This document shows, piece by piece, positions 4,140-47,849 of a DNA stretch of 64,000 nt; position 1 is the first letter of the stretch, and each line of letters begins with the position of its first letter. The stretch is from NCBI RefSeq assembly GCF_018139625.1, contig NZ_JAGSOH010000007.1, positions 1-64,000 on the forward strand, given 5' to 3'. Position numbers and translations under genes: made by a program. The notes below the pieces were generated by a model. It saw only the letters and a program-made list of their open reading frames with translations, was not told the origin of the DNA and did not search any database. Source of the stretch: Actinospica acidithermotolerans. GTDB taxonomy: Bacteria; Actinomycetota; Actinomycetes; Streptomycetales; Catenulisporaceae.

Positions 4140-4511
4140 TCAGTCGCTCGTCGCGGGGGGCGCCGCGAGTCGAAGAGCGGCCGCGGCCGTGTCGTAGACC
4201 AGTAGCGCGGCTTGGCGGCTCGTCAACCGGAGTATCTCGGTGACGACGCCCTCCGGGTCGGCGACCAGGCGCAACTCGAAGCCCCCGCGGACGCGCGCAT
4301 CAGCGAAGCCGAGGATCGACCGCGCCCCGGCCGCCGCCAGGGCCTTCAGATCGGAGAGGTCGAGGACGATCACCGTCGGGGGTGTCACGGCGCTCAGCGC
4401 TCTGTGCAGCGCCGCCACACCGTACTGGGCGACCGGCGCGTCGATCTCACCGGCCATCCGGACGTGTATCGACTCCTCGCTAGCCGTACGGGTCACCTCG
4501 ATCTTGAGCAC
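4140..4511 (-). CDS. STAS-domain protein lacking phospho-acceptor serine
   Basis: 123 residues forming one STAS domain (HVRMAGEIDAPVA, VIVLDLSDLKALAAAGARSIL). The D-S-S-G site is A59-A60-A61-G62, so phosphorylation control is lost. I chose the GTG at 4511 because AAGGA lies seven bases upstream. A second GTG at 4526 is in frame but has no ribosome site. It is convergent with the glycosylase gene, 15 bases apart. Role in anti-sigma binding is inferred from the family only. Confidence 0.75.
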   Translation of the reverse strand: MLKIEVTRTASEESIHVRMAGEIDAPVAQYGVAALHRALSAVTPPTVIVLDLSDLKALAAAGARSILGFADARVRGGFELRLVADPEGVVTEILRLTSRQAALLVYDTAAAALRLAAPPATSD

Positions 4512-4763
4512 CGTGCCGTCCTTCACCCCGGGCGGATGGCGCGTGGCTTTCCGGGGACCGACCGCCGCGCTCGATCATGCGCCTGACCATTGGTTCCGCA
4601 AGGCTAGTGGGGGCAGGCCGCGCCGTCACGGCCCCGAGGGCGGAATTCTCGGATTGTGCGCTCAGCAGCGAAGCGGCTTCGTTCAGCGGACAGCGGGCGG
4701 GTAGGTTGGTTGATCGTGCCGTCGAGGCGTGCTCGGGCACTACCGTGCGGAGGTGGCAGGACC

Positions 4764-11352: not shown

Positions 11353-11476
11353 CAGTCCGGTTACCCGATCGGCGAGCGCCAAACCCGGCGGCACACCTCG
11401 GGCGCGGGCGCGAATACGCGTCGCCCGACCGGGTAGCCCGGGACGCATCCCGAGCCGACGATCCCGAGGGGCGAAC

Positions 11477-11893: not shown

Positions 11894-13507
11894 TCACCCG
11901 GCCAGGCTTCGTTGCGCCGCGGTCCATCCCGCGGCGATCAGGCCGCCGAGGCGGCGTCCGTGCAGGGCGGCGCGGGCGGCGTTGGCACCGCAGGCGCCGT
12001 GGACGCCGCCGCCGGGGTGCGCCGAGGACGAGGCCAGGTAGAGGCCGTTGACCGGTGTCTCGGGTCGGGCGGTGCCGGGGGTCGGGCGCAGGAAGAGCTG
12101 CTGGTGCGGCGAGGCGGTGCCGCCGCCCAGCGCGCCGGCCGAGAGGTTGGCGTTGAGGGCCTCGAATCGGGGCGGGGTGAGGATCCGCCTCGCGACGATC
12201 AGGTCGCCGAATCCCGGGGCGAAACGCTCGACCTGCTGCTGCATCCGCTCGGCCATGGCCTCGGCCTCGCGCTCGCCCCAGCGACCGCTCAGCCCGTCCG
12301 GCCCGAGGTCTTCCGTGATCCGCCGCGGCACGTGGGTGTACATCCAGGCGGACTCGGTGCCCGCGGGCGAGCGGGTGGGATCGGCCGTGGTCATCTGCCC
12401 GAGCAGCCCGAAGGGGCGGGCCGGGACGCGGCCGGTGACGACGTGGTGGGCGAAGTCGCTCAGCTCCTGCATGTCGGCCGCCAGGTGCACGGTCCCGGCC
12501 CGGTGCGCCGGCGCGGCGGTCCACGGGATGGGGCCGGAGAGGGCCCAGTCGACCTTGACGGTCGCGAAGTCCCACTCGAAGCGGGTCATGTCCGCGCGCA
12601 TCCGGGCGGGCAGGTGCTCCCAGCCGACCAGGTGGCCGTAGAGCAGGGGCGCCGAGACGTCGGCGATCACCGCGTACCGCGCGGGCACGCCGCGGCCGTC
12701 CGCGGTCCGCACGGCCACCGCCCGCCGTCCGCGCACGACGACCTCGGCGACCGGGGCGCCGCAGTGGACGACGCCGCCGTGCGAGGTGAGCCGGTCGACG
12801 AGCGCGTTGGTGAGCGAGGCCGCGCCGCCGACCGGGACCGGCCAGCCGACCTGCTGGCCGAGCATCGCCAGCAGCCAGCCGTACATGCCACTGCCCGGGG
12901 ACTCCGGCTGGAGATCGGCGTGCAGGGCGCAGCCGGCCAGCAGCAGCCCGGGACCCGGGTCGGTGAACTCCTCCTGCGCCAGGCGCGCGACCGGCAGCGC
13001 GGCGAATCGGGCCGCCCGCAGCGCACCCGACACGCGCAGCCGGGCGGCCAGGCTCAGCCCGGCGCGCACCGGCGGGAACGGCGCGAAGAGGGATTCGACC
13101 AGACGCGGCTGCAACGTCCGCCAGAGCTCGGTCAGCCCCTGCCACGCCGCACCGTCCGCGGGGCCGAACATCGCCTCGATGCCGGCGGGCCCCTCGGCCA
13201 TCCCGCGCTCGAGCACGGCGCAGCGTCCGTCCGCCATCGGATGGGCGAGCACCGCCGGGGCGTGGCTCCAGGACAGCCCGTGCTCTTCCAGGGACAGCGA
13301 CCGGATCGCGGGCGAAGCGGCGGCGAGCGGATAGAACGAGCTGCACTCGTCGGTGACGTAGTCCGGGTGCACGCTGCGGTCACTGTGGACGGCGCCCCCG
13401 GGGTGCTCGTTCGCTTCCAGCACCTCGACGCTCCAGCCCGCGTCCACCAGGAGGTTCGCGGCGACGAGCCCGTTGGGGCCGGCGCCGATCACGACCGCGT
13501 CAGCCAT
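11894..13507 (-). CDS. FAD-dependent oxidoreductase (phytoene desaturase-like)
   Basis: 537 residues. The N-terminal Rossmann motif VVIGAGPNGLVAANLL and the following acidic end VEVLEANEHPGGA bind FAD, as in the carotenoid desaturase/NAD(P)-dependent amine oxidase superfamily. The C-terminus has the second FAD contact (PVNGLYLASSSAHPGGGVHGACGANAA). The substrate is unknown. No carotenoid or isoprenoid genes are nearby, so a pigment role is not supported. The start overlaps the last bases of the START-like gene upstream, so the two are translationally coupled. A GTG six bases further upstream is an alternative start. Confidence 0.85.
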   Translation of the reverse strand: MADAVVIGAGPNGLVAANLLVDAGWSVEVLEANEHPGGAVHSDRSVHPDYVTDECSSFYPLAAASPAIRSLSLEEHGLSWSHAPAVLAHPMADGRCAVLERGMAEGPAGIEAMFGPADGAAWQGLTELWRTLQPRLVESLFAPFPPVRAGLSLAARLRVSGALRAARFAALPVARLAQEEFTDPGPGLLLAGCALHADLQPESPGSGMYGWLLAMLGQQVGWPVPVGGAASLTNALVDRLTSHGGVVHCGAPVAEVVVRGRRAVAVRTADGRGVPARYAVIADVSAPLLYGHLVGWEHLPARMRADMTRFEWDFATVKVDWALSGPIPWTAAPAHRAGTVHLAADMQELSDFAHHVVTGRVPARPFGLLGQMTTADPTRSPAGTESAWMYTHVPRRITEDLGPDGLSGRWGEREAEAMAERMQQQVERFAPGFGDLIVARRILTPPRFEALNANLSAGALGGGTASPHQQLFLRPTPGTARPETPVNGLYLASSSAHPGGGVHGACGANAARAALHGRRLGGLIAAGWTAAQRSLAG

Positions 13508-13982
13508 GCTCACCGCCCCCGGACGCCGCGTGCTCGCGCTCGGGGGCGGGCGGTGCTTCTTCGACGGCGGACGCCAGCCGGGCCAGCAGGAGGCGGTGGC
13601 GCAGGTGCAGGACGAACTCGAACGGGGCGATGTGGAGGGAAGCGGCCGGACCGCGCAGCGGGTGCTCGTCGACGATCACGAGGGTGTCGCGGCCCCAGCG
13701 CGTGAGCCGGATCGCGATCCGCGCGCTGCCGGCCTTCCCGAGGATCGCCTCGAGTTCGAGCCGGGTGGGCGGCTCGCAGACTCGCACGACCGTACGGCCG
13801 GGAAGCGTCAGCCGTCCGACGCCGACCCGGTACGCGAGCGCGGAGCCGACCTGCGGCCACTGCCCGAGGCGGCCGGTGCTCTCCACCGTCCCCGGCACCC
13901 AGGTCCGGTAGCGCTCGGGGTCGCTCAGCAGCGCCCAGACCGTCTCGACCGGTCGATTCACGAGCCTGTGCCTGATCGCCAT
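13500..13982 (-). CDS. SRPBCC (START-like) superfamily protein
   Basis: 160 residues. Polyketide-cyclase/START-like fold: N-terminal IRHRLVNRPVETVWALLSDPERYRTWVPGT, several beta strands (TRLELEAILGKAGSARIAIRLTRW) and a long C-terminal helix. Such proteins bind hydrophobic ligands. The ATG at 13982 begins the conserved domain. Its 3' end overlaps the FAD oxidoreductase start by eight bases, so the pair may act together on a lipophilic substrate (inference). It is divergent from the transporter gene at 14194. Confidence 0.78.
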   Translation of the reverse strand: MAIRHRLVNRPVETVWALLSDPERYRTWVPGTVESTGRLGQWPQVGSALAYRVGVGRLTLPGRTVVRVCEPPTRLELEAILGKAGSARIAIRLTRWGRDTLVIVDEHPLRGPAASLHIAPFEFVLHLRHRLLLARLASAVEEAPPAPEREHAASGGGEHG

Positions 13983-14193
13983 GGCGCCGCGGGCCTTCCC
14001 TCGGAGAACTGGGAGGGCGCCGGTACCCCGGTCGGCGGGCGGGAAACGACTTCGGAGACGCCGGAGAGATCGGAGGCGCGGGAGAGCCGGAGACGGCGGA
14101 GACCGGCGTTCGCCGGACGCATGTCCGCGGCGGACCCGGGTACACCCGCCGCTCGACACTGAGGTGGGCACGGTGATCGGAGGGCAGAAGGAT

Positions 14194-15177: not shown

Positions 15178-16809
15178 ATGAAGTGGTCGGCCCTTTCCTC
15201 AACGGCGCACGTCGCCGTGGGCGGCCAGGGCGCGGTCCCTGTCATCCACCTGGCAGGCGAACTCGACGCCCGCTGCGCACACGGCGTCCTCGACATGATG
15301 GCGCAAGCCCGGCGCGCCGGCGGCGATCGGCTGGTCGTCGAGGCCAGCCGAGTCACCTACTGCACGATCGCCTCGGCACGCGCGCTCTACGAGGCGCAGA
15401 CGAATCTGCGCGCGTGCGGTGTCCGCCTGGAGTTACGCGCCCCGCACAGCGCCATGCGGCAGGTGCTCGAGTCGACCGGCCTGTCGCTGTGCGACGAACG
15501 CGAACGTCCGCCGACCCCGCCTCAGGCACACGTGGAGGAGCTGACCGAGGCGCTCGACGCTGCCACGTCGATCGCAGGTACGCGCATGGGCATGGCCCAA
15601 CTCCTCGATCGGGACGCACAGGCGCTGCGGCTGGTCGCTCACGTCGGCCTCGGCGCGCGGTTCACCGCGTTCTTCGAAACCGCCGGGTACGGCGAGACCG
15701 GCGCCGGCGACGTTCAACTGACGCGACCGGTCTTCAGCGAGGACGTGACCGCCGACGAGCGCTACGGCGGCTCCCCGGAACTCGCTGCCATGCTCGAAGC
15801 CGGCATCGGATCCTGCGCTTCGGCGCCGGTCACCACGTCCACCGGCCAACTCCTCGGCGTCGTCACCGCCTACCGACCCGAAGCCGGTACGTGGAGCACG
15901 GCGCAACGTGAAGGACTGCTGCGCCTCCGTGTCCAGCAGGAGTCCGACGATCCCGGTGCGCCGTCGGCCCGCGCTCCCGGCGCCGCCGCGACCTCTCCCG
16001 GGTCTCCCGGGCGGGAGAGGGAGCGCGAGGAGACGATGCGGCTGCTGCGGCGCCTCGCGGCACTGCCCGATTCCGATCCGGAAAGGGCGCGGCTGCGCAC
16101 CCAGGTCATCGAAGATCACATGAACTACGCCCGGCATCTGGCGCGCCGCTACGTCCGGGCGCATCACGCCGCGGGTGAGGACTTCGAGCAGGTCGCCTAT
16201 CTCGGGCTGGTCAAAGCCGTCGACAACTTCGACCCGGAATACGGCACCGGGTTCCTCGGCTACGCCACGCCGATGATCCTCGGCGAGATCAAGCGCCATT
16301 TCCGGGACGGCACCTGGGCGGTGCACGTCCCACGCCACCTGCAGGAACTGACCGCGGCTATGTACAAGGCCAAGGACGCGCTGCGCACCGAACTCGGACG
16401 CGAACCGACTGTGCGCGAACTCGCCGCCCGGCTCGACGTCGGCGAGGACGACGTCGTCCAGGCCCTCGATGCCGCGGACGCCTACCGCACCGCCTCACTG
16501 GACCGGCCCGTGGGGGAAGGCGAGGGATCCGCGAGCCTCGGCGAACTGCTCGGCTCTGAGGACCCCGGCTTCGAACACGCCGTCAACCACGAGGTCCTGC
16601 GCGGGCTGATGGCCGAACTGTCGGAACGCGACAAGAAGATCCTGCTCATGCGGTACTTCCGCGGCATGACGCAGCATGAGATCGGCGCCGTGATCGGCAC
16701 CTCGCAGATGCAGGTCTCCCGCCTGCTCACGAAGATCATCGCAAGGCTGCGCGACGGCTTCTTCCCCGACGATGACGAGGCCGAGTCGACCGCCGACGCA
16801 GGCCGCTGA
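15178..16809 (+). CDS. STAS-GAF-sigma factor (SigB/SigF family) fusion protein
   Basis: 543 residues with three modules in order. Residues 10-105 form a STAS domain, 118-255 a GAF-like sensor (GMAQLLDRDAQALRLVAHVGLG), and 285-535 a complete sigma-B/F-type sigma factor: region 2 (NYARHLARRY...DFEQVAYLGLVKAVDNFDP...GFLGYATPMILGEIKRHFRD), region 3 (VPRHLQELTAAMYKAKD) and region 4 (LLMRYFRGMTQHEIGAVIGTSQMQVSRLL). The STAS phospho-site D-S-S-G reads T63-I64-A65-S66. Normally the STAS antagonist and the sigma factor are separate proteins competing for the anti-sigma factor. A 30-residue Pro/Ala/Glu/Arg linker separates GAF and sigma parts. The reading frame is unbroken, so this is not a sequencing chimera at a frame boundary. 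The ribosome site before the ATG is weak. Confidence 0.88.
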   Translation: MKWSALSSTAHVAVGGQGAVPVIHLAGELDARCAHGVLDMMAQARRAGGDRLVVEASRVTYCTIASARALYEAQTNLRACGVRLELRAPHSAMRQVLESTGLSLCDERERPPTPPQAHVEELTEALDAATSIAGTRMGMAQLLDRDAQALRLVAHVGLGARFTAFFETAGYGETGAGDVQLTRPVFSEDVTADERYGGSPELAAMLEAGIGSCASAPVTTSTGQLLGVVTAYRPEAGTWSTAQREGLLRLRVQQESDDPGAPSARAPGAAATSPGSPGREREREETMRLLRRLAALPDSDPERARLRTQVIEDHMNYARHLARRYVRAHHAAGEDFEQVAYLGLVKAVDNFDPEYGTGFLGYATPMILGEIKRHFRDGTWAVHVPRHLQELTAAMYKAKDALRTELGREPTVRELAARLDVGEDDVVQALDAADAYRTASLDRPVGEGEGSASLGELLGSEDPGFEHAVNHEVLRGLMAELSERDKKILLMRYFRGMTQHEIGAVIGTSQMQVSRLLTKIIARLRDGFFPDDDEAESTADAGR

Positions 16810-24999: not shown

Positions 25000-27201
25000 C
25001 TATGGTCCACTGTTGTCTGACAATATATGGGCTGGATTGGGCGAGCCCGGCAAGCAGTGCACGAGCAGGACGGCGATGTCGTCGGTGTGCTGGGCGCCGC
25101 GCTGGGCGTGGCGCAGCAGCGCGTCGATGACGTGATCGAGGTGGTCGGGGGCCCTCGGGCCGACGTCGGTGAGCACGTCGGCGAGGGCTGCCACCGCGTC
25201 GTCGGGATCGGTGCCGGGCGCTTCGATCAATCCGTCCGTGTACAGGGTCAGCAGCGAGCCGGGCGGCACGTCGAAGGTGGTGGTGGGATAGGTCGAATCC
25301 GGGTCGACGCCGAGCAGCGGGCCTGGTTCGACGGGCACCGGGTCGGCGCGTTCGCCCGGTCGCCGCAGCAGCGGGGCGGGGTGTCCGGCGCTGGACACCA
25401 TCGCGCGGCCGCGGGCGAAGTCGAGATGGACGTAGAGGCAGGAGACCAGCAGATCGGGCTCGAGGTCGGCGATGACCCGGCTCGTTCTGGCCAGAACCTG
25501 GTCGGGGGCCGCGCCGGCGGTGGCGTGCGCGTGCACGGCGGTGCGCGCCTGCCCCATCAGGGCGGCCGCGGCGATGCTGTGGCCCTGCACGTCGCCGATG
25601 ACGGCGGCCGCGGTGTGCTCGGTCAGCTTGATCACGTCGTAGAAGTCGCCGCCGACGTCGAGTCCGTGGCTCGCCGGCAGGTAGCGGGCGGCGACGTCGA
25701 GACCGGGCAGGCTCGGCAGGGTCCGCGGGAGCAGGGCCTGCTGCAGGTCGCGGGCCACGGCGTGCGCCGCGTCGTAGAGCCGGGCGCGCTCGAGCGCCTG
25801 GGCGAGCAGGCCGGCGAGCGAGGTGAGCACGGCTCGCTCGTCGGCGGAGAAGGCGTGCGGCTCGTCGTAGGACAGCGTGCAGACGCCGACCGGGCGTCCG
25901 GAGACGATCAGCGGCAGGAAGGCCCAGGCCTGCTTGTCGGTGAGCGACGGCGCCCGCGGGTAGCCCCGGCTCAGCTCCTCCCGGTCGCGCAGGAAGCAGG
26001 GGCAGCCGGTGGACAGCGCCCGGCCCGCCGGGGTCAGGTCGGTGTCCAGCGGAAGGTGGTCGAGGCGCTCGATGATCTCCGCCGGGTAGCCGTGGTGGCC
26101 GACGATCTTCAGCCGTCCGGCGTCCGCGCCCGAAAGGACCAGACCCTGGGCGCGGAAGGCCGGCAGCACCTGGTCGGCGACCAGGTCCACGACGTCCTGG
26201 GCGCCGACGGTCTCCGTGAGCGCGGCGGCGAGGTGCACCAGCTGGTAGAGCCGTCCGGTCGGGGCGGCTTCGGGCCGGGACGCCGGGCGCGGCAGCGCGT
26301 CGAGCGCCCCCGGCCCGTCGGCCGGGCTGATCAGCACACTGATTCCGCTGGTGTCGGGGTGGAGCTGGAAGGTGAGATGGCAGTCCGGCGGGCGCACGGC
26401 GCTGTAGGTGACCGGTTCGCGGCTCACGACCGCCGTGCGGTAGTGGTCCTCGTAGGCGGGGTCGTCGAGCCACGGCAGCGAATGCCAGGGCCGCGTTCCG
26501 AGCAGGACCTCGGCTTCGCGGCCCAGAAAACGTGCCGCGTGCGCGCTGACGTAGGTGAACCTGCCCTCGAGGTCCAGGGCCGCGGCGCCGGGCAGGCGCT
26601 CGGCGAAGTCCGCGATCGCCGTTTGGTTGCCGACGTGCCGCCGGGCCCGCGCGAGGGCGACCACCTGCGGTTCTTCGGGGAGCGTCCCGGTCCCGACGTG
26701 ATCCAGCAAGCGGCCGATCCGGCGTCCCGAGGAGGTGATGTGGCCGCGCTCACGGCGCCTCGCCTGGCGGGGATGGGCGCCCGACCACAGCAGCAGCAAC
26801 GCGCCCCAGCACCGGTTCGCGCCCTCCAGCGCCACCGCGGCCAGGGCGAGCCGGTACGGAAGGACTGCGGCGACCCGGGGATAGTCGCGCGCCATCTCCT
26901 CCTGCGATCCGATCCACACCAGCCGGCCCTGCCGGACTGCGTCGGCCACCGGCAACGCCTCCGACAAGGGCACGCGCCGCCACGGAGTGGCGAACTCCAC
27001 CGGCAGCCCGCAAAGGGCCGTCATACGCAGCATCCGGTCGCCGGGCTCGAACAGGTAGATCCCGCCCATGGAAGCGCCGGTACGCCGAACGACGTCCGCC
27101 AGCACGTCCTCGATCGCGTCCTGGGCCGGGGACAGGCCGCCGGACGCCGACGGCGTGCCTTCAGCCGTCGAGCGCCGGAGCCCGTTGCGCGCCATGGTCA
27201 T
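25000..27201 (-). CDS. GAF-PAS-GAF-PP2C (SpoIIE/RsbU-type) serine phosphatase
   Basis: 733 residues. Order: GAF (about 25-150), PAS (about 195-290, AALDLEGRFTYVSAHAARFLGREAEVLLG), second GAF (about 310-470), linker helix, and PP2C-type SpoIIE domain (about 490-725) with the metal-binding motifs GGDFYDVI, GDVQGHS, SAGHPAPLL, YTDGLIEA and HTDDIAVLL. The phosphatase removes phosphate from STAS antagonists and so activates a partner-switch sigma factor. The GAF and PAS parts presumably sense an unknown signal. The last ten codons overlap an operator-like sequence at 25013-25023. Monocistronic, with a hairpin after the stop. Confidence 0.92.
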   Translation of the reverse strand: MTMARNGLRRSTAEGTPSASGGLSPAQDAIEDVLADVVRRTGASMGGIYLFEPGDRMLRMTALCGLPVEFATPWRRVPLSEALPVADAVRQGRLVWIGSQEEMARDYPRVAAVLPYRLALAAVALEGANRCWGALLLLWSGAHPRQARRRERGHITSSGRRIGRLLDHVGTGTLPEEPQVVALARARRHVGNQTAIADFAERLPGAAALDLEGRFTYVSAHAARFLGREAEVLLGTRPWHSLPWLDDPAYEDHYRTAVVSREPVTYSAVRPPDCHLTFQLHPDTSGISVLISPADGPGALDALPRPASRPEAAPTGRLYQLVHLAAALTETVGAQDVVDLVADQVLPAFRAQGLVLSGADAGRLKIVGHHGYPAEIIERLDHLPLDTDLTPAGRALSTGCPCFLRDREELSRGYPRAPSLTDKQAWAFLPLIVSGRPVGVCTLSYDEPHAFSADERAVLTSLAGLLAQALERARLYDAAHAVARDLQQALLPRTLPSLPGLDVAARYLPASHGLDVGGDFYDVIKLTEHTAAAVIGDVQGHSIAAAALMGQARTAVHAHATAGAAPDQVLARTSRVIADLEPDLLVSCLYVHLDFARGRAMVSSAGHPAPLLRRPGERADPVPVEPGPLLGVDPDSTYPTTTFDVPPGSLLTLYTDGLIEAPGTDPDDAVAALADVLTDVGPRAPDHLDHVIDALLRHAQRGAQHTDDIAVLLVHCLPGSPNPAHILSDNSGP
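25013..25023. promoter_or_regulatory. GntR/FadR-like operator (copy 3), inside the phosphatase gene end
   Basis: TTGTCTGACAA is a perfect 5-1-5 palindrome and fits TNGTNNNACNA. It is followed by TATATGG, similar to the ATATGG after copy 1. It lies within the last codons of the PP2C gene. Confidence 0.4.
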
Positions 27202-31070: not shown

Positions 31071-31919
31071 GTGAAGCTGGGATCTTCAGATCACCTGCTC
31101 GGCTTGATGACGACGCGCCGCGACGAGCTCGCCGCCGCCTGGATCGAGGTGGTCTCGCAGACCCTCGCGGGCCGGATCAGCCGGGCCGAACTCGACCAGG
31201 AGCTGCACGAGCTGTACGCGGCGCTGGTGGAGGCCTTGCGCGCTGGAGGCCTCGACGCCTCCGGCGAGCACTACACGGAGGTGCGCGCGCTGCTCGCCGA
31301 GCTCTCCCGCAACCGTGCCCGGCAGGGTTTCCGGCCGGCCGAGACCGCCGTCAGCCTGTTCGCGCTCAAGCGCGGCCTCGAGAGGCTGCTCGACGACGGG
31401 TCGGCCGACGACGTCGCCGCCTACCTCGCGCTCAGCCGGCTCACGGACGAGCTCGGGATGTTCACCGTCGACAGCTTCGCCGCCAGCCGCGAGCAGATCA
31501 TCAGCTCGCAGGCGGAGGAGCTGCTCGAGCTCTCCACTCCGGTGGTCAAGCTGTGGGACGGCGTCATCGGCGTTCCGCTCGTCGGCACCCTCGACTCGGC
31601 GCGCACCCAGGTGGTGATGGAGAAGCTGCTCCAGGAGCTCGTCGACACCGGCTCGGCGCACGCGATCATCGACATCACCGGCGTGCCGGCGGTGGACACC
31701 GAGGTCGCCCAGCACCTGCTCAAGACAGTCGTGGCGGCCCGGCTGATGGGTGCGGAATGCATCGTGTCCGGCATCCGGCCGCAGATCGCGCAGACCATCG
31801 TCGCGCTGGGGATCGAGTTCGGCGACATCGTCACGAAGGCCACCCTCGCCGACGCGCTGCGCCACGCCCTGCGGCGGTCCGCGCAGCGCGCGGCGCTGAG
31901 CGTCGGGGATGCCGCGTGA
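31071..31919 (+). CDS. rsbR: RsbR-type stressosome protein (RsbRD/STAS)
   Basis: 282 residues. Helical N-terminal RsbRD-like sensor domain (LLGLMTTRRDELAAAWIEVVSQTL...) to about 150, a linker ELLELSTPVVKLWDGVIGVPLVGTLD typical of RsbR paralogues, and a C-terminal STAS domain. Both threonines phosphorylated by RsbT in B. subtilis RsbR have counterparts: VDTEVAQ (about 208) and AQTIV (about 241). RsbR forms the stressosome shell with RsbS and senses stress through the N-domain. The GTG at 31071 has GAGG six bases ahead. It overlaps rsbS by four bases. Confidence 0.9.
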   Translation: MKLGSSDHLLGLMTTRRDELAAAWIEVVSQTLAGRISRAELDQELHELYAALVEALRAGGLDASGEHYTEVRALLAELSRNRARQGFRPAETAVSLFALKRGLERLLDDGSADDVAAYLALSRLTDELGMFTVDSFAASREQIISSQAEELLELSTPVVKLWDGVIGVPLVGTLDSARTQVVMEKLLQELVDTGSAHAIIDITGVPAVDTEVAQHLLKTVVAARLMGAECIVSGIRPQIAQTIVALGIEFGDIVTKATLADALRHALRRSAQRAALSVGDAA

Positions 31920-32293
31920 GCGACCGCGTGCCGATCCTGCGCATCGGCGAGAACCTGCTGGTCTCGATCCAGATCGACCTGGACGACCAGACGGTGATGA
32001 ACCTCCAGGAGGATCTCGCCGCCCAGGTCGTCAAGTACGGTGCCCGCGGCGTCGTCATCGACATCACGGCCGCCGAGATCGTGGACTCCTTCGTCGGGCG
32101 CATGCTCTCCACCATCGCCTCGGTCAGCCGGCTGCTCGACGCCGAGACCGTCGTGGTCGGGATGCGGCCCGCGGTCGCGATCACGCTGGTCGAGCTCGGG
32201 CTCTCGCTGGGCGGAGTGCGCACCGCGCTCAATCTGGAGCAGGGACTGGCCATTCTGGCGAAGCGCGCCTCGGCCGGCGCGGCAGGGCGGTGA
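31916..32293 (+). CDS. rsbS: RsbS stressosome scaffold
   Basis: 125 residues forming one STAS domain. VPILRIGENLLVSIQIDLDD opens as in RsbS, and the phospho-serine is kept at residue 58 in EIVDSFVGRML (S59 in B. subtilis). RsbS binds and holds RsbT; phosphorylation of the serine by RsbT releases the kinase. The start overlaps the rsbR stop (GTGA) and the stop overlaps the rsbT start (GTGA), so the three proteins should be made in coupled amounts. Confidence 0.92.
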   Translation: MSDRVPILRIGENLLVSIQIDLDDQTVMNLQEDLAAQVVKYGARGVVIDITAAEIVDSFVGRMLSTIASVSRLLDAETVVVGMRPAVAITLVELGLSLGGVRTALNLEQGLAILAKRASAGAAGR

Positions 32294-32712
32294 CGGTGGC
32301 GGAGCCGGATGTCGGCGAGGTCCGCGTCCAGACCATCGCAACGTCCGACGACGTGGTGCGGGCCCGGCAGCTGGCGCGCAACCTCGCCGTGGAGTGCCGG
32401 CTGTCGCTGGTGGACCAGACGAAGCTCGTGACCGCGGCGAGCGAGCTGGCCCGCAACACGCTCGTCTACGGCGGCGGCGGTTCGCTCAGCGGCGCGCTCG
32501 TCCAGGACGCCCGACGCCGCGGGGTGCGGCTGACCTTCACCGACCAGGGGCCCGGCATCCCGGACGTGGACCTCGCGCTGAGCGACGGCTGGTCGTCCGG
32601 CAGCGGGATGGGGCTGGGCCTGAGCGGCGCCCGCAGGCTCGCCGACGACTTCGACCTGCGCACGACCGTGGGAGCGGGGACCACGGTGACGGTGATCAAA
32701 TGGACGCACTGA
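32290..32712 (+). CDS. rsbT: RsbT serine/threonine kinase (stressosome switch)
   Basis: 140 residues, GHKL ATPase fold. N-box ASELARNTLVYGGGG, G1-box TDQGPGIPD, and G2 region GMGLGLSGARRLADDF are intact. RsbT phosphorylates RsbS and RsbR, then leaves to activate a PP2C phosphatase (family knowledge). The likely target here is one of the PP2C proteins encoded downstream or at 25000. Start overlaps the rsbS stop; the next start lies 13 bases inside this gene. Confidence 0.92.
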   Translation: MTVAEPDVGEVRVQTIATSDDVVRARQLARNLAVECRLSLVDQTKLVTAASELARNTLVYGGGGSLSGALVQDARRRGVRLTFTDQGPGIPDVDLALSDGWSSGSGMGLGLSGARRLADDFDLRTTVGAGTTVTVIKWTH

Positions 32713-33788
32713 CCGGCACCCTGCCGGCCGATCCGCGCGAGGGCGTCTGGCTCCGCCAGGAGGTCTCCCTCGCCGCCCGGGCCCGCCGCACGGCAGCGGC
32801 GCTCGGCAAGCGGATCGGGCTGGAGCCCGAGCGCGTCGCGGAGATCGAACTCGCCGTCACCGAGACCGCCGTGAACCTCAACCGGCACGCCGCCGACGGC
32901 GCCGTGCTGCTGCGTCTGGCGGACGACGGCGGCCGCGCCGCCGTGGAACTGATCGCCGTCGACAACGGGCCGGGCATGGCGGACGTCGCCGGCGCGCGGC
33001 GGGACGGGTACTCCTCGGCCGGGACGCTGGGCATCGGCCTCGGCGTGGTCGAGCGCATGGCGGACTCCTTCGACGTGCATTCGCTGATGGGTCGCGGAAC
33101 CGTCCTGGTCGCGCGGTTCCGCGCGCGCGGGAAGCACGGCCCGGCCCCCTATCCGGAGCCCGCCGTGGCCGGATTGACCCGGCCGATGAGCGGCGAGGCC
33201 GTCTGCGGGGACGGCTGGGCTCTGCGCGAGATCGCCGCGGCCGCGGCGGACGGCCCCGCGCCTGAAGGACAGCTGCCGCTGCTGGTCCTGATGTGCGACG
33301 GCCTGGGCCACGGCCCGCTGGCCGCGCGGGCGAGCGAGCAGGCCAAGATCGCCTTCCACGGCGCCGGGTCCGCCGAGCCCGTCCGGATCGTGAGCGAGCT
33401 TCACCGCGCGATGGCGGGCACCCGCGGCGGCGCCCTGGCCGTCGCGCGGATCGCCCCGGACGGCGAGGGCGTGTCGTTCTGCGGCGTGGGGAACATCAGC
33501 GCCTTCATCGTCGCCGACGGCCGTCGCAGCTCGCTGCTGTCCTCGCCGGGGATCGTGGGCCACCATCTGCCGCGGCTGCGCGGTTTCGAGGCCGAGCTGC
33601 CCGCCGGGGCGAGCCTCGTCCTGCACTCCGACGGGCTGAGCGAACGCTGGGACCAGTCCGCGCTCGCCGGGCTGTTCGGCCGTTCGAGCACGGTCATCGC
33701 GGCGCAGCTGCTGCGCGAGGCCGGGGTGCGCCGCGACGACGCGAGCGTGGTCGTCGTCAAGGGCGGCCGCCGCGGGGTCGGGCCGTGA
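32700..33788 (+). CDS. HATPase-PP2C fusion (RsbT-like kinase plus RsbX-like phosphatase)
   Basis: 362 residues. Residues about 10-145 form a second RsbT-like ATPase (N-box ELAVTETAVNLNRHA, DNGPGMADV, LGIGLGVVERMAD). Residues 165-355 form a compact PP2C/SpoIIE domain (LMCDGLGHGPLAARASEQAK, CGVGNISAFIV, LVLHSDGLSERWD, RDDASVVVV) resembling RsbX, which dephosphorylates RsbS/RsbR to reset the stressosome. The same two-domain layout is seen downstream of rsbT in other bacteria. Coupled to rsbT and to the kinase gene by overlapping starts. Confidence 0.9.
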   Translation: MDALTGTLPADPREGVWLRQEVSLAARARRTAAALGKRIGLEPERVAEIELAVTETAVNLNRHAADGAVLLRLADDGGRAAVELIAVDNGPGMADVAGARRDGYSSAGTLGIGLGVVERMADSFDVHSLMGRGTVLVARFRARGKHGPAPYPEPAVAGLTRPMSGEAVCGDGWALREIAAAAADGPAPEGQLPLLVLMCDGLGHGPLAARASEQAKIAFHGAGSAEPVRIVSELHRAMAGTRGGALAVARIAPDGEGVSFCGVGNISAFIVADGRRSSLLSSPGIVGHHLPRLRGFEAELPAGASLVLHSDGLSERWDQSALAGLFGRSSTVIAAQLLREAGVRRDDASVVVVKGGRRGVGP

Positions 33789-35536
33789 CCGGCGCGGTCC
33801 AGCTGCTGGCGACCGGCATCTCGGCGGAACAGGACGTCTTCGCGCTGCGGCGCGACGGCCGTGCGGTGGCCGAGATCGTCGGGCTCGACCCGCAGGACCA
33901 GATCCGGCTGGCCACCGCGCTCAGCGAGTTCGGCCGCGACCGGATCGGCTGCGCGGACGCGACGTGCCGGTTCTCGCTGCGCGCGGAGCCGGCCGCGATA
34001 CTCGAGGTGGCCCTGCGCTGGTCCGGCGGCCCCGCGCCGGCCGCGGAGACGCTGCTCTCCATGCGCCGGCTGGTGCGCGAGCTCGACCAGGAGATCGGCT
34101 GCCGCCGCGGCCGGATCATCCTGCGGTACCCCGTCGCGGTGCCGCTCGAGGATTTCGCCGCGGCGGCCGAGCGAGTCACGGAGGCACTGAGCATGGGCGT
34201 CGCCGCCAGCCGCGAGGAGGACCTTCGCGCGCAGACCCGGGATCTGATCGTCGCGCTCGAGGAAGCCCGTGCGCACGGCGAGGAGCTGAAGCTGCTCAAC
34301 GAGGAGCTCGAGCAGACGAACTCGGGCGTCATGGCTCTGTACGCGGAGCTCTCCTCCGAGCTGGAGCAGACGAACATCGGCGTCGTCGCGCTGCACGCGG
34401 AGCTCGAGGACAAGACCCGCCGGCTGCGCGAGGCGAGCGAGGCGAAGACCCGGTTCTGGGCCAACGTCAGCCATGAGCTGCGCGGGCCGCTCAATTCGGT
34501 GATCGGCCTGAGCCGGCTGCTGGCCGACGCCCCGCCCGAGGAGCTCGGGGAGGCGCAACGGCAGCAGGTCGAGCTGATCGCGTCCTCCGGGGCGACGCTG
34601 CGCACCCTGGTGGACGAACTGCTGGACGTCGCCAAGGCGGAGGCGGGCCAGCTGATCCCGCAGCCCGCGCCGGTCGACCTCGGCCTGCTGCTGGCGGAGC
34701 TCGAGGCCGTCATGCGCCCCGCGGTCCCGAACCCGGGCGTCGCGCTGGTCTTCCCCGAGCCGGCCGGCCTGCCGGCGCTGGTGACGGACGAGACGATGCT
34801 GACCCGAATCCTGCGGAACCTCGTCGGTAACAGCCTCAAGTTCACCGAGTCAGGCCACGTGCGGATCGAGGTGGCGGTCTCCGGATCGGATCGCGACCGG
34901 ATCGAGATCGGCGTCGAGGACACCGGGATCGGGATTCCGGAGCAGGAGCAGGCGAGAATCTTCGAGGAGTTCTATCAGGTACGCGGACCGCACCAGCGGG
35001 GCAAGGCCGGCACCGGCCTCGGCCTGCCCTACGCCCGCCGGCTCGCCGAACTGCTCGGCGGCTCCCTCACGCTCGAAAGCGCGCCGGGCCGCGGCACGCG
35101 GATGACCGTCTCGCTGCCCGCCCCGGCCGCCGGGGCCGCGGCCGACACGCCGGCCACCGTGCCGTGCCTGGTCTGCGCGGACGACGATCCCGCGTTCGCG
35201 GCCGTGTTCCGCCCGACACTGACCCGGCTCGCCGAGCGCGTGATCGAGCTCCGGGACGGCGCGGACCTGCTCGCCACCGTCCGGCGCGAGGGCGCGGACG
35301 CGGTCGTCGTCGACCTGGACATGCCGATCGTGGACGGGTACGAGGCGGTGCGCCTGCTCGCCGAATCGGAGGACCTGGCCGCCGTACCGGTCGTGGTCGT
35401 CACGGGCTTCGCCCTGGCCGACGTGGACATGGCCCGCCTCGGGCATGCCCGCGCCGTGCTCGCGAAGGAATCCGTCGACGCGAGCCGCCTTGCCCGGGCA
35501 CTCGGCCTGGCGCCCCTCGACGAGGGGGCCTCGTGA
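33785..35536 (+). CDS. Hybrid sensor histidine kinase with RsbT-like N-domain
   Basis: 583 residues. A degenerate RsbT-like region comes first (about 10-130, QIRLATALSEFGRDRIG). A coiled coil (about 140-220) holds two copies of ELEQTN-x-GV-x-AL-x-AEL. Then HisKA with the phospho-His in NVSHELRGPLNSVIGLSRLL (about 229), HATPase_c (330-455: NLVGNSLKFT, DTGIGIP, GTGLGLPYARRLAELLGG) and a receiver domain (462-583) with phospho-Asp in VVVDLDMPIVDGYEA. No membrane helix, so cytoplasmic. Overlaps both neighbours as GTGA. It may pass phosphate to the REC-GAF-PP2C protein encoded next. Confidence 0.9.
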   Translation: MTGAVQLLATGISAEQDVFALRRDGRAVAEIVGLDPQDQIRLATALSEFGRDRIGCADATCRFSLRAEPAAILEVALRWSGGPAPAAETLLSMRRLVRELDQEIGCRRGRIILRYPVAVPLEDFAAAAERVTEALSMGVAASREEDLRAQTRDLIVALEEARAHGEELKLLNEELEQTNSGVMALYAELSSELEQTNIGVVALHAELEDKTRRLREASEAKTRFWANVSHELRGPLNSVIGLSRLLADAPPEELGEAQRQQVELIASSGATLRTLVDELLDVAKAEAGQLIPQPAPVDLGLLLAELEAVMRPAVPNPGVALVFPEPAGLPALVTDETMLTRILRNLVGNSLKFTESGHVRIEVAVSGSDRDRIEIGVEDTGIGIPEQEQARIFEEFYQVRGPHQRGKAGTGLGLPYARRLAELLGGSLTLESAPGRGTRMTVSLPAPAAGAAADTPATVPCLVCADDDPAFAAVFRPTLTRLAERVIELRDGADLLATVRREGADAVVVDLDMPIVDGYEAVRLLAESEDLAAVPVVVVTGFALADVDMARLGHARAVLAKESVDASRLARALGLAPLDEGAS

Positions 35537-37188
35537 CCGGCCGGGCGGCCGCCGAGGCCGAGAGCGGCCTCGTGCTGATCGTGGACGACAACGCGGCCAA
35601 CCGCTATCTGCTGTCCCAATGGCTGCGCCGCGCCGGACACGAGGTCGTCGAAGCGGTCGACGGAGCCGACGCCCTCGACAAGCTGAGCCGGCTGAACGCC
35701 GTGCCCGAGGTCGCCCTGCTCGACATCGTGCTGCCCGACATGACAGGCTTCGAACTGTGCCGGCGCCTCAAGGCCGCGCCGCGGACGGACGAGATTCCCG
35801 TCATCCACATCTCGGCCACCGCCGTCTCCGTCGCCGATCGCACCCAGGGCCTGGACGGCGGCGCGGACGCCTACCTGACCGAGCCGGTGGATCGCGACGA
35901 GCTGCTGGCCACCATCACGGCGGTGCTCCGCTACACCCGGGCCCGGCGCAGAGTGCAGCGGCTCGCCGACCGCCTCCTCCTGCTGAACCGGGCCACGCTC
36001 GATCTCTATCGCGCGACCGACTTCGAGCGCTTCGCCCGGGCGGCCGTCGACGGCACCCGGGCGGTGCTCGGGGCGCAGTCCGCCAGCGTGTACCTGAGCC
36101 TGGCCGGGCGGCCGGTGCGGACCTACCAGCTGCACGAGAACGCGCCGGTGGTCTCCGAACCGCTGTCGACCGAAGTGCTGGAGAGGATCGCCCGCACGGT
36201 GCTCGGCGCGGGCTCCGGCGCGCGGATCGCCTTCATCCCCCAGCGGGAGTGGCGGACCTTGGTCTCAGGGCCCGTGCTCCGCGGCGACGTGCTGGTCGCC
36301 GCGGTCAGGGCGCGTGCCGAGCGACCGCCGGTGTGCGTCGCGATCGCCGCCGACCAGGCGCCGCCGAACGACGACAAGACCCTGCTCATCCAGATCGCTC
36401 AGGCCTGCGCCCTCGCCCTGGAATCGCTGCGCAACTACGCCGAGGAACACGCCCTGGCTCTGGAACTGCAGCGCTCCTTCCTGCCGAGCCGGCTCGCCGC
36501 GTCCGAGGGCATCCGGCTGGCGGTGCGCTACGTGCCCGCCAGCACCCAGGCCGAGATCGGCGGGGACTTCTACGAGGCCATCGAGACCCGCCGCGGGCTG
36601 CTGCTGGCGATCGGCGACGTCGTCGGGCACTCGCTGCAGGCGGCGATCCTGATGGGCGAGGTCCGCCACGCGCTGCGGGCCTACGCGATCGAAGGGCACG
36701 CCCCCGAGGTCATCCTCGACCTGCTCGACAACGTCCTGGCGCACGGGCGATCGGAACTGACCACCGTGACGCTGTGCCTGGTCCTGGTCGAATCCGGGCG
36801 ACGCCGCCTGCGGATCGCCAACGCGGGCCATATCCCGCCGCTTCTCGCCTCCCGCGCCGGGACGCGGTTCGTCGCCGAGCACGGCCGGCTGCTCGGCCTC
36901 GGCGGCGGCCGGTTCGAGGCGACCGTCGTGGATCTGCCCGAGCCGACCCGCCTGGTGCTGTGCACCGACGGGCTGGTCGAGGTGCGCCACGTCTCGATCA
37001 CCAAGAACCTCGCCGCGTACGAGGAGGCAGTGCGCGGCGGCCCGGAGGACCTCGAAGCCCTCTGCGACGCGGTGCTCGCGGAGTTCGGCCGCGGCAAGGA
37101 CGACGACATCGCGCTGCTCGCGGCCGACCTGATTCCGGAACCGCCGCGCGACGAGCGGTCCCCGTCGGGCCGGTCCTCGCCGGATTAG
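35533..37188 (+). CDS. Response regulator with GAF and PP2C phosphatase output
   Basis: 551 residues. Receiver domain (about 12-130) with acidic pocket VDDNAANR, phospho-Asp in ALLDIVLPDMTGFELC and a late E-P (in place of the usual K-P) at YLTEPVD. GAF-like middle (about 150-300). PP2C/SpoIIE domain (about 315-540) with GGDFYEAI, GDVVGHSLQAAILMGE, NAGHIPPLL, CTDGLVEV and KDDDIALLA. Phosphorylation could steer its phosphatase activity towards STAS antagonists. The conserved receiver lysine appears replaced by Glu, so phospho-signalling may be altered. Last gene of the operon. Confidence 0.9.
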   Translation: MTGRAAAEAESGLVLIVDDNAANRYLLSQWLRRAGHEVVEAVDGADALDKLSRLNAVPEVALLDIVLPDMTGFELCRRLKAAPRTDEIPVIHISATAVSVADRTQGLDGGADAYLTEPVDRDELLATITAVLRYTRARRRVQRLADRLLLLNRATLDLYRATDFERFARAAVDGTRAVLGAQSASVYLSLAGRPVRTYQLHENAPVVSEPLSTEVLERIARTVLGAGSGARIAFIPQREWRTLVSGPVLRGDVLVAAVRARAERPPVCVAIAADQAPPNDDKTLLIQIAQACALALESLRNYAEEHALALELQRSFLPSRLAASEGIRLAVRYVPASTQAEIGGDFYEAIETRRGLLLAIGDVVGHSLQAAILMGEVRHALRAYAIEGHAPEVILDLLDNVLAHGRSELTTVTLCLVLVESGRRRLRIANAGHIPPLLASRAGTRFVAEHGRLLGLGGGRFEATVVDLPEPTRLVLCTDGLVEVRHVSITKNLAAYEEAVRGGPEDLEALCDAVLAEFGRGKDDDIALLAADLIPEPPRDERSPSGRSSPD

Positions 37189-37279: not shown

Positions 37280-37774
37280 TCAGTGCTGGACGCCGCGCAG
37301 CGGTTCGGTGAAGATCAGGGTGCCCGCGCCGTCGCGCACCTGCCAGTGCGGCTCCTCGACGAGCGCGCAGAGCATGGTCCAACCCACGTCGTCCGGCGTC
37401 GGCGGACGACTCGGAGCCGGGCCGTCGACGGTGATCCTCAGCCAGCCCTCGAGGCGGTCGAACGCCACGGCGAGGCGCCGCCGCCCCGCCCCGGCCGGCT
37501 CGCCGCCGACGAACAGCGCGCACGCCTCGTTCACCGCGAGCCTGAGATCGGTCACCCGGCCGATCGGCAGCCCGAGCAGGCCAGTCACGTGCATCGTGGC
37601 CATCCGCGCGAGCGGGAGGTAGTCCTTCTCGGCCGTGAACTCGACGCTCGCGAGCCGGGTGACGCCGTCCGGCGTCCCCGGGAGGTACCGCCCGGCGGCC
37701 AGGTTGCGTGCGCGGATCGTTGCCCCGGTCGGCGCATGCGAAACCGGGGTGAGATTCAACCCCCTCATGTCCAT
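37280..37774 (-). CDS. RsbW-like anti-sigma ATPase domain protein
   Basis: 164 residues. GHKL-type ATPase of the anti-sigma kind: N-box RVTDLRLAVNEACALFVGGE, then LRITVDGPAPSR in place of a clear DxGxG box, and DDVGWTMLCALVEEPHWQVRDGAGTLIFTEPL at the end. The glycine-rich ATP lid is poorly kept, so kinase activity is uncertain although binding to a sigma or STAS partner is plausible. The ATG at 37774 has GGGAG eight bases upstream. Convergent with the stressosome operon; a sigma-B-like promoter lies 44 bases upstream. Confidence 0.75.
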   Translation of the reverse strand: MDMRGLNLTPVSHAPTGATIRARNLAAGRYLPGTPDGVTRLASVEFTAEKDYLPLARMATMHVTGLLGLPIGRVTDLRLAVNEACALFVGGEPAGAGRRRLAVAFDRLEGWLRITVDGPAPSRPPTPDDVGWTMLCALVEEPHWQVRDGAGTLIFTEPLRGVQH

Positions 37775-46898: not shown

Positions 46899-47636
46899 CT
46901 ACCCGCGTGCCGCGGTGAGCGCCGTGGTCTGGATCTCGCGGACGGCCTGTTCGAGTTCGTCCGCGGCCTCCTCCAGCCGCTCGCGCCAGACGGTGTCCGA
47001 GGCGGCGGCGCCCGTCAGCAGGAGGCTGGCGGCGAAGATCCGGTTGACGGCGTCCTGCGCCGCCCGGGCGATCGCCTCGTCGGAGCGCGCCACCCCCGGG
47101 TCCCAGGTGCGCGCGACGAGCTCGCCGGCGAGCCGGCCGTAGACGCGCAGCGGACGCAGGGCATGCTCCTCGACGCGGCCCGGGCGGCGCAGGTGGGTGG
47201 AGACCATGCCGACGAGCGCGCCGCTGCGGGCGGTCAACGGCGTGGAGACCACGGCCCGGAAGCCGAAGGCGGCCGCGACCGCGCGGTGCGGAGCGAAGTC
47301 CGCGTCCAGTTCGACGTCGGCGATCACGGTCTGCGCGCGCACCCTGGCGGCGCGACCGCACGCCGAATCGTCGTCGACCACCAGGGCGAAGTGCTCCAGG
47401 AACTCGGGCCCGAACCCGTCCTGCGCCGCGATCCACAAACCCCCGGAGACCGGATCGACCAACTGCACGTTGCCCAGGTCCGCGCCGGCCAGGTCGCGTG
47501 CACCGTCGAGGATCTGCCGAAGCACGTCCTCGAGGCCGCCGGCGGCGCGCCCGCTCTCCGGATAGTGCTTGGCCGGGGCGGGCGCGGCGGGGCCCCCGCC
47601 CGTCGCGAACGCCCTGTGCTCGCGGATGACCTCCAT
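46899..47636 (-). CDS. GAF-domain protein
   Basis: 245 residues. A GAF domain spans about 35-175 (LGNVQLVDPVSGGLWIAAQDGFGPEFLEHF, DFAPHRAVAAAFGFRAVVSTPLTARSGALVGMVSTHLRRP). The C-terminal part is a helical region (VWRERLEEAADELEQAVREIQ) that could dimerise. Similar GAF proteins sit next to stress-sigma genes in actinobacteria. Ligand unknown. ATG 47636 has GAGGTGG ahead. Divergent from the V-type ATPase operon. Confidence 0.85.
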   Translation of the reverse strand: MEVIREHRAFATGGGPAAPAPAKHYPESGRAAGGLEDVLRQILDGARDLAGADLGNVQLVDPVSGGLWIAAQDGFGPEFLEHFALVVDDDSACGRAARVRAQTVIADVELDADFAPHRAVAAAFGFRAVVSTPLTARSGALVGMVSTHLRRPGRVEEHALRPLRVYGRLAGELVARTWDPGVARSDEAIARAAQDAVNRIFAASLLLTGAAASDTVWRERLEEAADELEQAVREIQTTALTAARG

Positions 47637-47849
47637 CGCAACCACCTCGGCATTCCGGCGCATTCTCCCGCGTTCTCCTGGATTCTCCCGGATTAACCCC
47701 GGAGATGTACGCCTTTTTCCAAGACTAATCCCGGCCCGGGCCGCCGGGAAGCGGTTCGGCCGTGCCGCCGGGGGACCTTCGGCCCTAGAGCGCCGCGACG
47801 CCCGCGGCCGACGATGGGTGCGATGGCCGAGGACGGCGAGGAGGTCACG
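47637..47849. other. Divergent promoter region of GAF gene and V-type ATPase operon
   Basis: 213 bases. Three short direct repeats of TTCTCC (about 47660-47690) lie next to the GAF gene. An AT-richer patch around 47700-47725 may hold a promoter. No clear operator found. Confidence 0.35.

Follow-up and report, generated by a model that had tools for sequence, protein, structure and literature searches.

A SigF-type sigma factor fused to its own STAS and GAF domains in Actinospica acidithermotolerans: a possible phosphorylation-free switch within one protein

The stretch of DNA analysed here (64,000 nucleotides; the window), from the soil actinobacterium Actinospica acidithermotolerans, carries at 15178-16809, on the forward strand, a gene for a protein of 543 amino acids in which a STAS domain, a GAF domain, a linker and a SigF-type sigma factor, a transcription factor of the stress response, follow one another. 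An initial annotation had claimed a single unbroken 543-codon frame, and the frame is indeed open from end to end, with coding-like codon use along its length. It had also read STAS, GAF and a full SigB/F-type sigma factor in the one chain, which Pfam and TIGR02980 matches bear out. The STAS domain (residues 23-102; 15244-15483), also seen in the AlphaFold2 model, matches the STAS_2 profile above its curated cut-off (44.2 bits, 2.3e-11) and the STAS profile at 2.2e-7. The GAF domain (residues about 122-245; 15541-15912) is not listed by Pfam for the whole protein and appears when its segment is scanned by itself: the segment from residue 118 alone scored 42.8 bits with GAF_2, whose cut-off is 28.6 (7.9e-11), and matched GAF at 1.6e-8. 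A low-complexity linker rich in Pro, Ala and Ser (residues about 251-282; 15928-16023) is the fusion junction, as placed by the domain borders of relatives. The sigma factor (residues 304-526; 16087-16755) has regions 2, 3 and 4 complete, with Sigma70_r2 (311-380), Sigma70_r3 (393-458) and Sigma70_r4 (477-525) all above their curated Pfam cut-offs, and NCBIfam model TIGR02980 (255.2 against a cut-off of 234.35) assigns it to the SigB/SigF/SigG family.

GC content per codon position and codon log-odds favoured the fused frame over its full length, and third-position GC was high throughout 15178-16809. Frames +1 and +2 scored below zero in every 60-codon stretch, including the linker, where only the fused frame had a coding-like score and an open reading. 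Codon statistics along the gene gave no sign of a frameshift or false join. The genome is a draft of 422 contigs and the fusion was seen once, so that an assembly or sequencing error linking two neighbouring genes could be suspected; we consider this very improbable, as frame and codon bias continue across the linker, the junction lies in the interior of a 111.6-kb contig and each half stops at a natural domain border. The fusion of STAS-GAF to the sigma factor is confirmed as real.

Three genomes made up the genus comparison: the window genome (G000) and two others (G001 and G002). The STAS-GAF half matches a stand-alone protein of 268 amino acids in G002, which reaches its stop where the linker of the fused protein starts, before any sigma part. 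The G001 copy is interrupted by a contig end, and no GAF sequence lies upstream of those G001 sigma genes that were found. Stand-alone STAS-GAF proteins are also present in two Streptomyces-group genomes (L031 and L032). The sigma half is one member of a genus-level SigF-type expansion and is 57-69% identical to its sisters. These sisters begin at the linker region of the fused protein, in which their N-terminal stretch is retained (RAETMRVLRRM... in the sisters, REETMRLLRRL... in the fusion). Since each half is whole and separately encoded within the genus, two whole proteins have been joined. At alignment positions that do not vary among 14 sister sigma factors, the fused sigma part has five departures (each sister has 0-4), and from its alignment it appears essentially intact. 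In the sigma tree its end branch is the longest among the sisters (0.42 versus a median of 0.09), which could mean relaxed constraint. A grouping with the sigma factor on contig C144 is neither supported nor rejected (p-AU 0.14), and the tree accepts or rejects neither C144 nor C364 as the nearest sister.

No second fused protein was found in the genus genomes (the G001 copy ends at its contig end), among about 70 SigF-type matches listed from 14 family genomes, in the best few candidates per genome from overlapping genome sets (392 for the order, 395 for the class and 396 for the phylum), or in 72,556 plasmid records; searches of this kind, which start from relatives, would miss fusions assembled from unrelated STAS or GAF parts. 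A pattern scan of genome contigs returned distant Methylobacter sigma factors only. This leaves a single genome from which the fusion is known.

A fusion seen in a single genome might be recent and functionally neutral, the sigma factor working alone, or through an internal start or proteolysis, with STAS-GAF passive or decaying. The long branch of the sigma part would fit this, as would the GAF domain, which has lost a conserved Cys-containing motif that its closest relatives carry. Met287 (16036-16038, +), a Met kept in the sister sigma factors, has GAGGAG upstream of its codon and is a tentative candidate for an internal start; SigH, the Streptomyces coelicolor SigB homologue, occurs in N-terminally truncated proteolytic forms (PMC8346170). 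On the other hand, the coding signal is maintained in both STAS and GAF, both exceed Pfam cut-offs when scanned, and searches of the window genome gave no STAS-GAF gene apart from the fused one. We rate neutrality as improbable, while noting that the long sigma branch and the lost Cys motif warn that constraint may have changed.

The initial annotation gave the STAS phospho-site as T-I-A-S. Alignment to SpoIIAA agrees, placing T63-I64-A65-S66 (15364-15375, +) at the D-S-S-G position, with Ile64 where the phospho-Ser would be; in the AlphaFold2 model these residues stand at the start of the second helix (64-79). The protein thus has the STAS domain expected of an RsbV/SpoIIAA antagonist, but its helix 2 does not begin with a Ser or Thr that could be phosphorylated. 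The phospho-Ser is absent from all five STAS-GAF proteins examined, stand-alone ones included: Ile is also found in the G001 and G002 proteins, and G or F in the Streptomyces-group copies. As the Ser is already missing in stand-alone relatives, its loss was not caused by the fusion, and we rejected the idea that fusion had removed phosphorylation. The suggestion that phosphorylation control has been replaced stands only in part: the Ser is absent and the anti-sigma family (below) looks kinase-negative, but the loss is common to STAS-GAF relatives rather than specific to the fusion.

The best candidate for an anti-sigma partner is encoded at 37280-37774 on the reverse strand, 20 kb from the fused gene on the same contig. 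Its product is RsbW-like, with a weak HATPase_c_2 match (E 4.2e-4, 20.8 bits, under the cut-off of 27.4). It shares 62% identity with the RsbW-like protein encoded directly next to a sister sigma gene on C144, and the two proteins group together in the anti-sigma tree (support 82/79); with RsbW-like proteins beside other sister sigma genes its identity is 37-44%. Its earlier nomination as a partner thus holds up, as it belongs to the anti-sigma family whose genes abut sister sigma genes. In G000, an RsbW-like gene lies near the sister SigF genes on C395, C144 and C24, and in G002 near those at 1142, 1144, 2272 and 2778 kb; the fused gene and the sigma genes on C364 and C19 have none close by. 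Four anti-sigma homologues in G000 are unpaired (37280, two on C364 and one on C389), so that we infer that 37280-37774 is likely, not proven, to be cognate for the fused sigma factor. A homologue at G000:C364:20398-20838 (L085), 48% identical to 37280-37774, contains two in-frame TGA codons and is perhaps a decayed gene.

The N-box Asn and the G1 motif DxGxG, the kinase motifs of RsbW-type proteins, are absent from 37280-37774 and from the whole sigma-paired anti-sigma family; in the same alignment the RsbT-like protein of the window retains both. Because these motifs are lost, the family is probably kinase-negative, like mycobacterial RsbW1. In Mycobacterium smegmatis, RsbW1 is an anti-SigF factor without kinase activity, and a separate protein, RsbW2, which has conserved N, G1 and G2 motifs, performs the phosphorylation (PMC7693655). 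RsbW1 thus provides a precedent, within the actinobacteria, for an anti-SigF factor that is kinase-negative.

AlphaFold2 modelled the STAS part with a pLDDT of about 77-87, its strands and helices in a STAS-like order. Few input sequences were available, and for the whole protein the mean pLDDT was 57, with no usable model of the GAF fold or of the domain-domain arrangement. A fold search of the PDB with the model was consequently informative for the sigma part alone, which is similar to SigB-type sigma factors; phmmer with the STAS part alone found nothing useful in the PDB.

The fused extension might instead inhibit the sigma part directly. No anti-sigma gene borders the fused gene, in which it differs from most sisters, and among ECF sigma factors there are extensions that replace the anti-sigma factor (PMC8999054). 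Those ECF factors resemble the fusion in that a sigma factor bears its own regulatory domain; they differ in that region 3 is absent and the extensions consist of SnoaL, Cys-rich or anti-sigma domains instead of STAS-GAF (PMC8999054). Here Sigma70_r3 is present and placement is with SigBFG, and the sigma part, besides being non-ECF, keeps the sequence of sisters located beside anti-sigma genes. Moreover, RsbW-like proteins are the partners for which STAS is specialised, an anti-sigma homologue is encoded 20 kb away, and the AlphaFold2 model has no confident contact between the STAS-GAF half and the sigma half. Direct autoinhibition is, in our estimate, unlikely, though a reading to be kept in mind.

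At 31107-37188 (+) lies a stressosome-like operon, recognised from domain content and G002 orthologues, encoding an RsbRD-like protein, RsbS-like and RsbT-like proteins (names based on domain and gene order), an HATPase-SpoIIE phosphatase, a hybrid histidine kinase and a receiver-SpoIIE phosphatase. The HATPase-SpoIIE protein (32700-33788) unites a kinase-like and a phosphatase-like part in one chain, its HATPase domain being RsbW/RsbT-like and its phosphatase domain of SpoIIE type, and is conserved in G002 with 69% identity; identities across the operon are 69-86%. In G002 a single STAS gene separates the orthologous operon from the stand-alone STAS-GAF gene. In the window the operon, the adjoining anti-sigma gene 37280-37774 and the fused gene are all on one contig. 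Further partner-switching parts of the window are found at 981-1409, 2474-2734, 4140-4526, 25000-27201 and 46899-47663, together three STAS genes, a PAS-GAF-SpoIIE phosphatase and a lone GAF protein.

These links allow for another role, in which STAS-GAF anchors the sigma factor to the stressosome or captures the anti-sigma factors of sisters, carrying the stressosome signal to several SigF paralogues in trans. Such docking or cross-talk would suit the neighbouring positions of STAS-GAF gene and operon in G002, the contig shared by fused gene and operon in G000, and the four unpaired anti-sigma homologues of G000. However, the fused protein lacks the stressosome-type RsbR architecture, an N-terminal sensor followed by a C-terminal STAS domain: its order, STAS-GAF-sigma, is the reverse. 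We regard docking as improbable.

Two SigB/F promoter-like sites are present in the window, against 0.07 expected in shuffles. One, GTTT...GGGTA at 14024-14047 (-), lies about 41 bp upstream of an SRPBCC gene (13500-13982, -) that neighbours the fused gene, and is a possible target; the other (11362-11384) has no obvious gene. In the Streptomyces group, a SigF-type sigma gene lies within about 1.5 kb at 12 of 30 loci matching the STAS-GAF profile (L036, L038, L039, L043, L045-L050, L052 and L053), these profile loci being mostly GAF-only matches; a check of two of them showed ANTAR proteins, and one of these two has a GAF match.

In the textbook form of partner switching, three separate proteins compete under the control of phosphorylation. 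The Bacillus systems SigB/RsbW/RsbV and SigF/SpoIIAB/SpoIIAA share their sigma family and STAS family with the fusion, but consist of three separate proteins in which the anti-sigma factor is the kinase of the STAS protein. The mycobacterial SigF switch (SigF, RsbW1, RsfA/RsfB and RsbW2; PMC7693655) is closer, having a SigF-type sigma factor, STAS antagonists and a kinase-negative RsbW-type anti-sigma factor, the last of these predicted here from motifs. There, in contrast, sigma factor and STAS antagonist are distinct proteins, and phosphorylation of Ser-63 governs RsfB, the main antagonist (PMC7693655); the fused STAS has no counterpart of this Ser. The stand-alone STAS-GAF proteins (at 2809 kb in G002, and L031 and L032) have the same STAS-then-GAF order without a phospho-Ser at the standard site, but no sigma factor attached, and the G002 copy adjoins the stressosome operon. 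CapS, a STAS-wHTH repressor with the kinase CapK, likewise has STAS fused directly to a DNA-binding transcription regulator; it is, however, a repressor, and is switched by Ser phosphorylation, impossible at that site in the fused STAS (PMC13373217). Thus, ECF sigma factors with regulatory extensions (PMC8999054) and a STAS-repressor fusion (PMC13373217) are already known, and neither a SigB/F-type sigma factor joined to STAS-GAF nor any other STAS-sigma fusion turned up in a search of the open-access literature.

The reading we favour, to which we would give somewhat less than an even chance, is that this lineage-specific fusion has drawn a partner switch that does without phosphorylation partly into one protein. 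The sigma part would be held by a kinase-negative anti-sigma factor of RsbW-like type, 37280-37774 being the best candidate; the STAS part, without its phospho-acceptor Ser, would compete in cis for the same anti-sigma factor; and the GAF domain, via a ligand or its redox state, would determine whether the STAS surface is exposed. As GAF would set this exposure, a signal would act directly on the sigma factor. That a STAS antagonist has been joined in cis to its own sigma factor is plausible; its binding to the anti-sigma factor and the competition in cis we infer, and gating by a GAF ligand is a conjecture. A phospho-null STAS held in cis might be permanently active, leaving the switch constitutive unless GAF gates it. 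Most sister SigF genes have an RsbW-like gene nearby, and the fused gene has its same-family candidate 20 kb off, which speaks for a partner switch; the unsettled tie to C144, the other unpaired anti-sigma homologues and the length of the sigma branch speak against it. The complete scheme, a one-protein switch in which a SigF-type factor carries its own phosphorylation-free STAS and GAF and a signal releases the sigma factor by competition in cis, is doubtful as it stands.

Were it to operate, the fusion may let a signal switch a sigma factor without a separate switch protein and its phosphorylation. The SigF anti-sigma factors of this genus look kinase-negative, and the protein would offer a compact test case, with purified components, for cis competition and phosphorylation-free control. 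Fusions of this kind also point to functional partners; here the STAS-GAF proteins, which have been little studied, are tied to control of SigF-type sigma factors.
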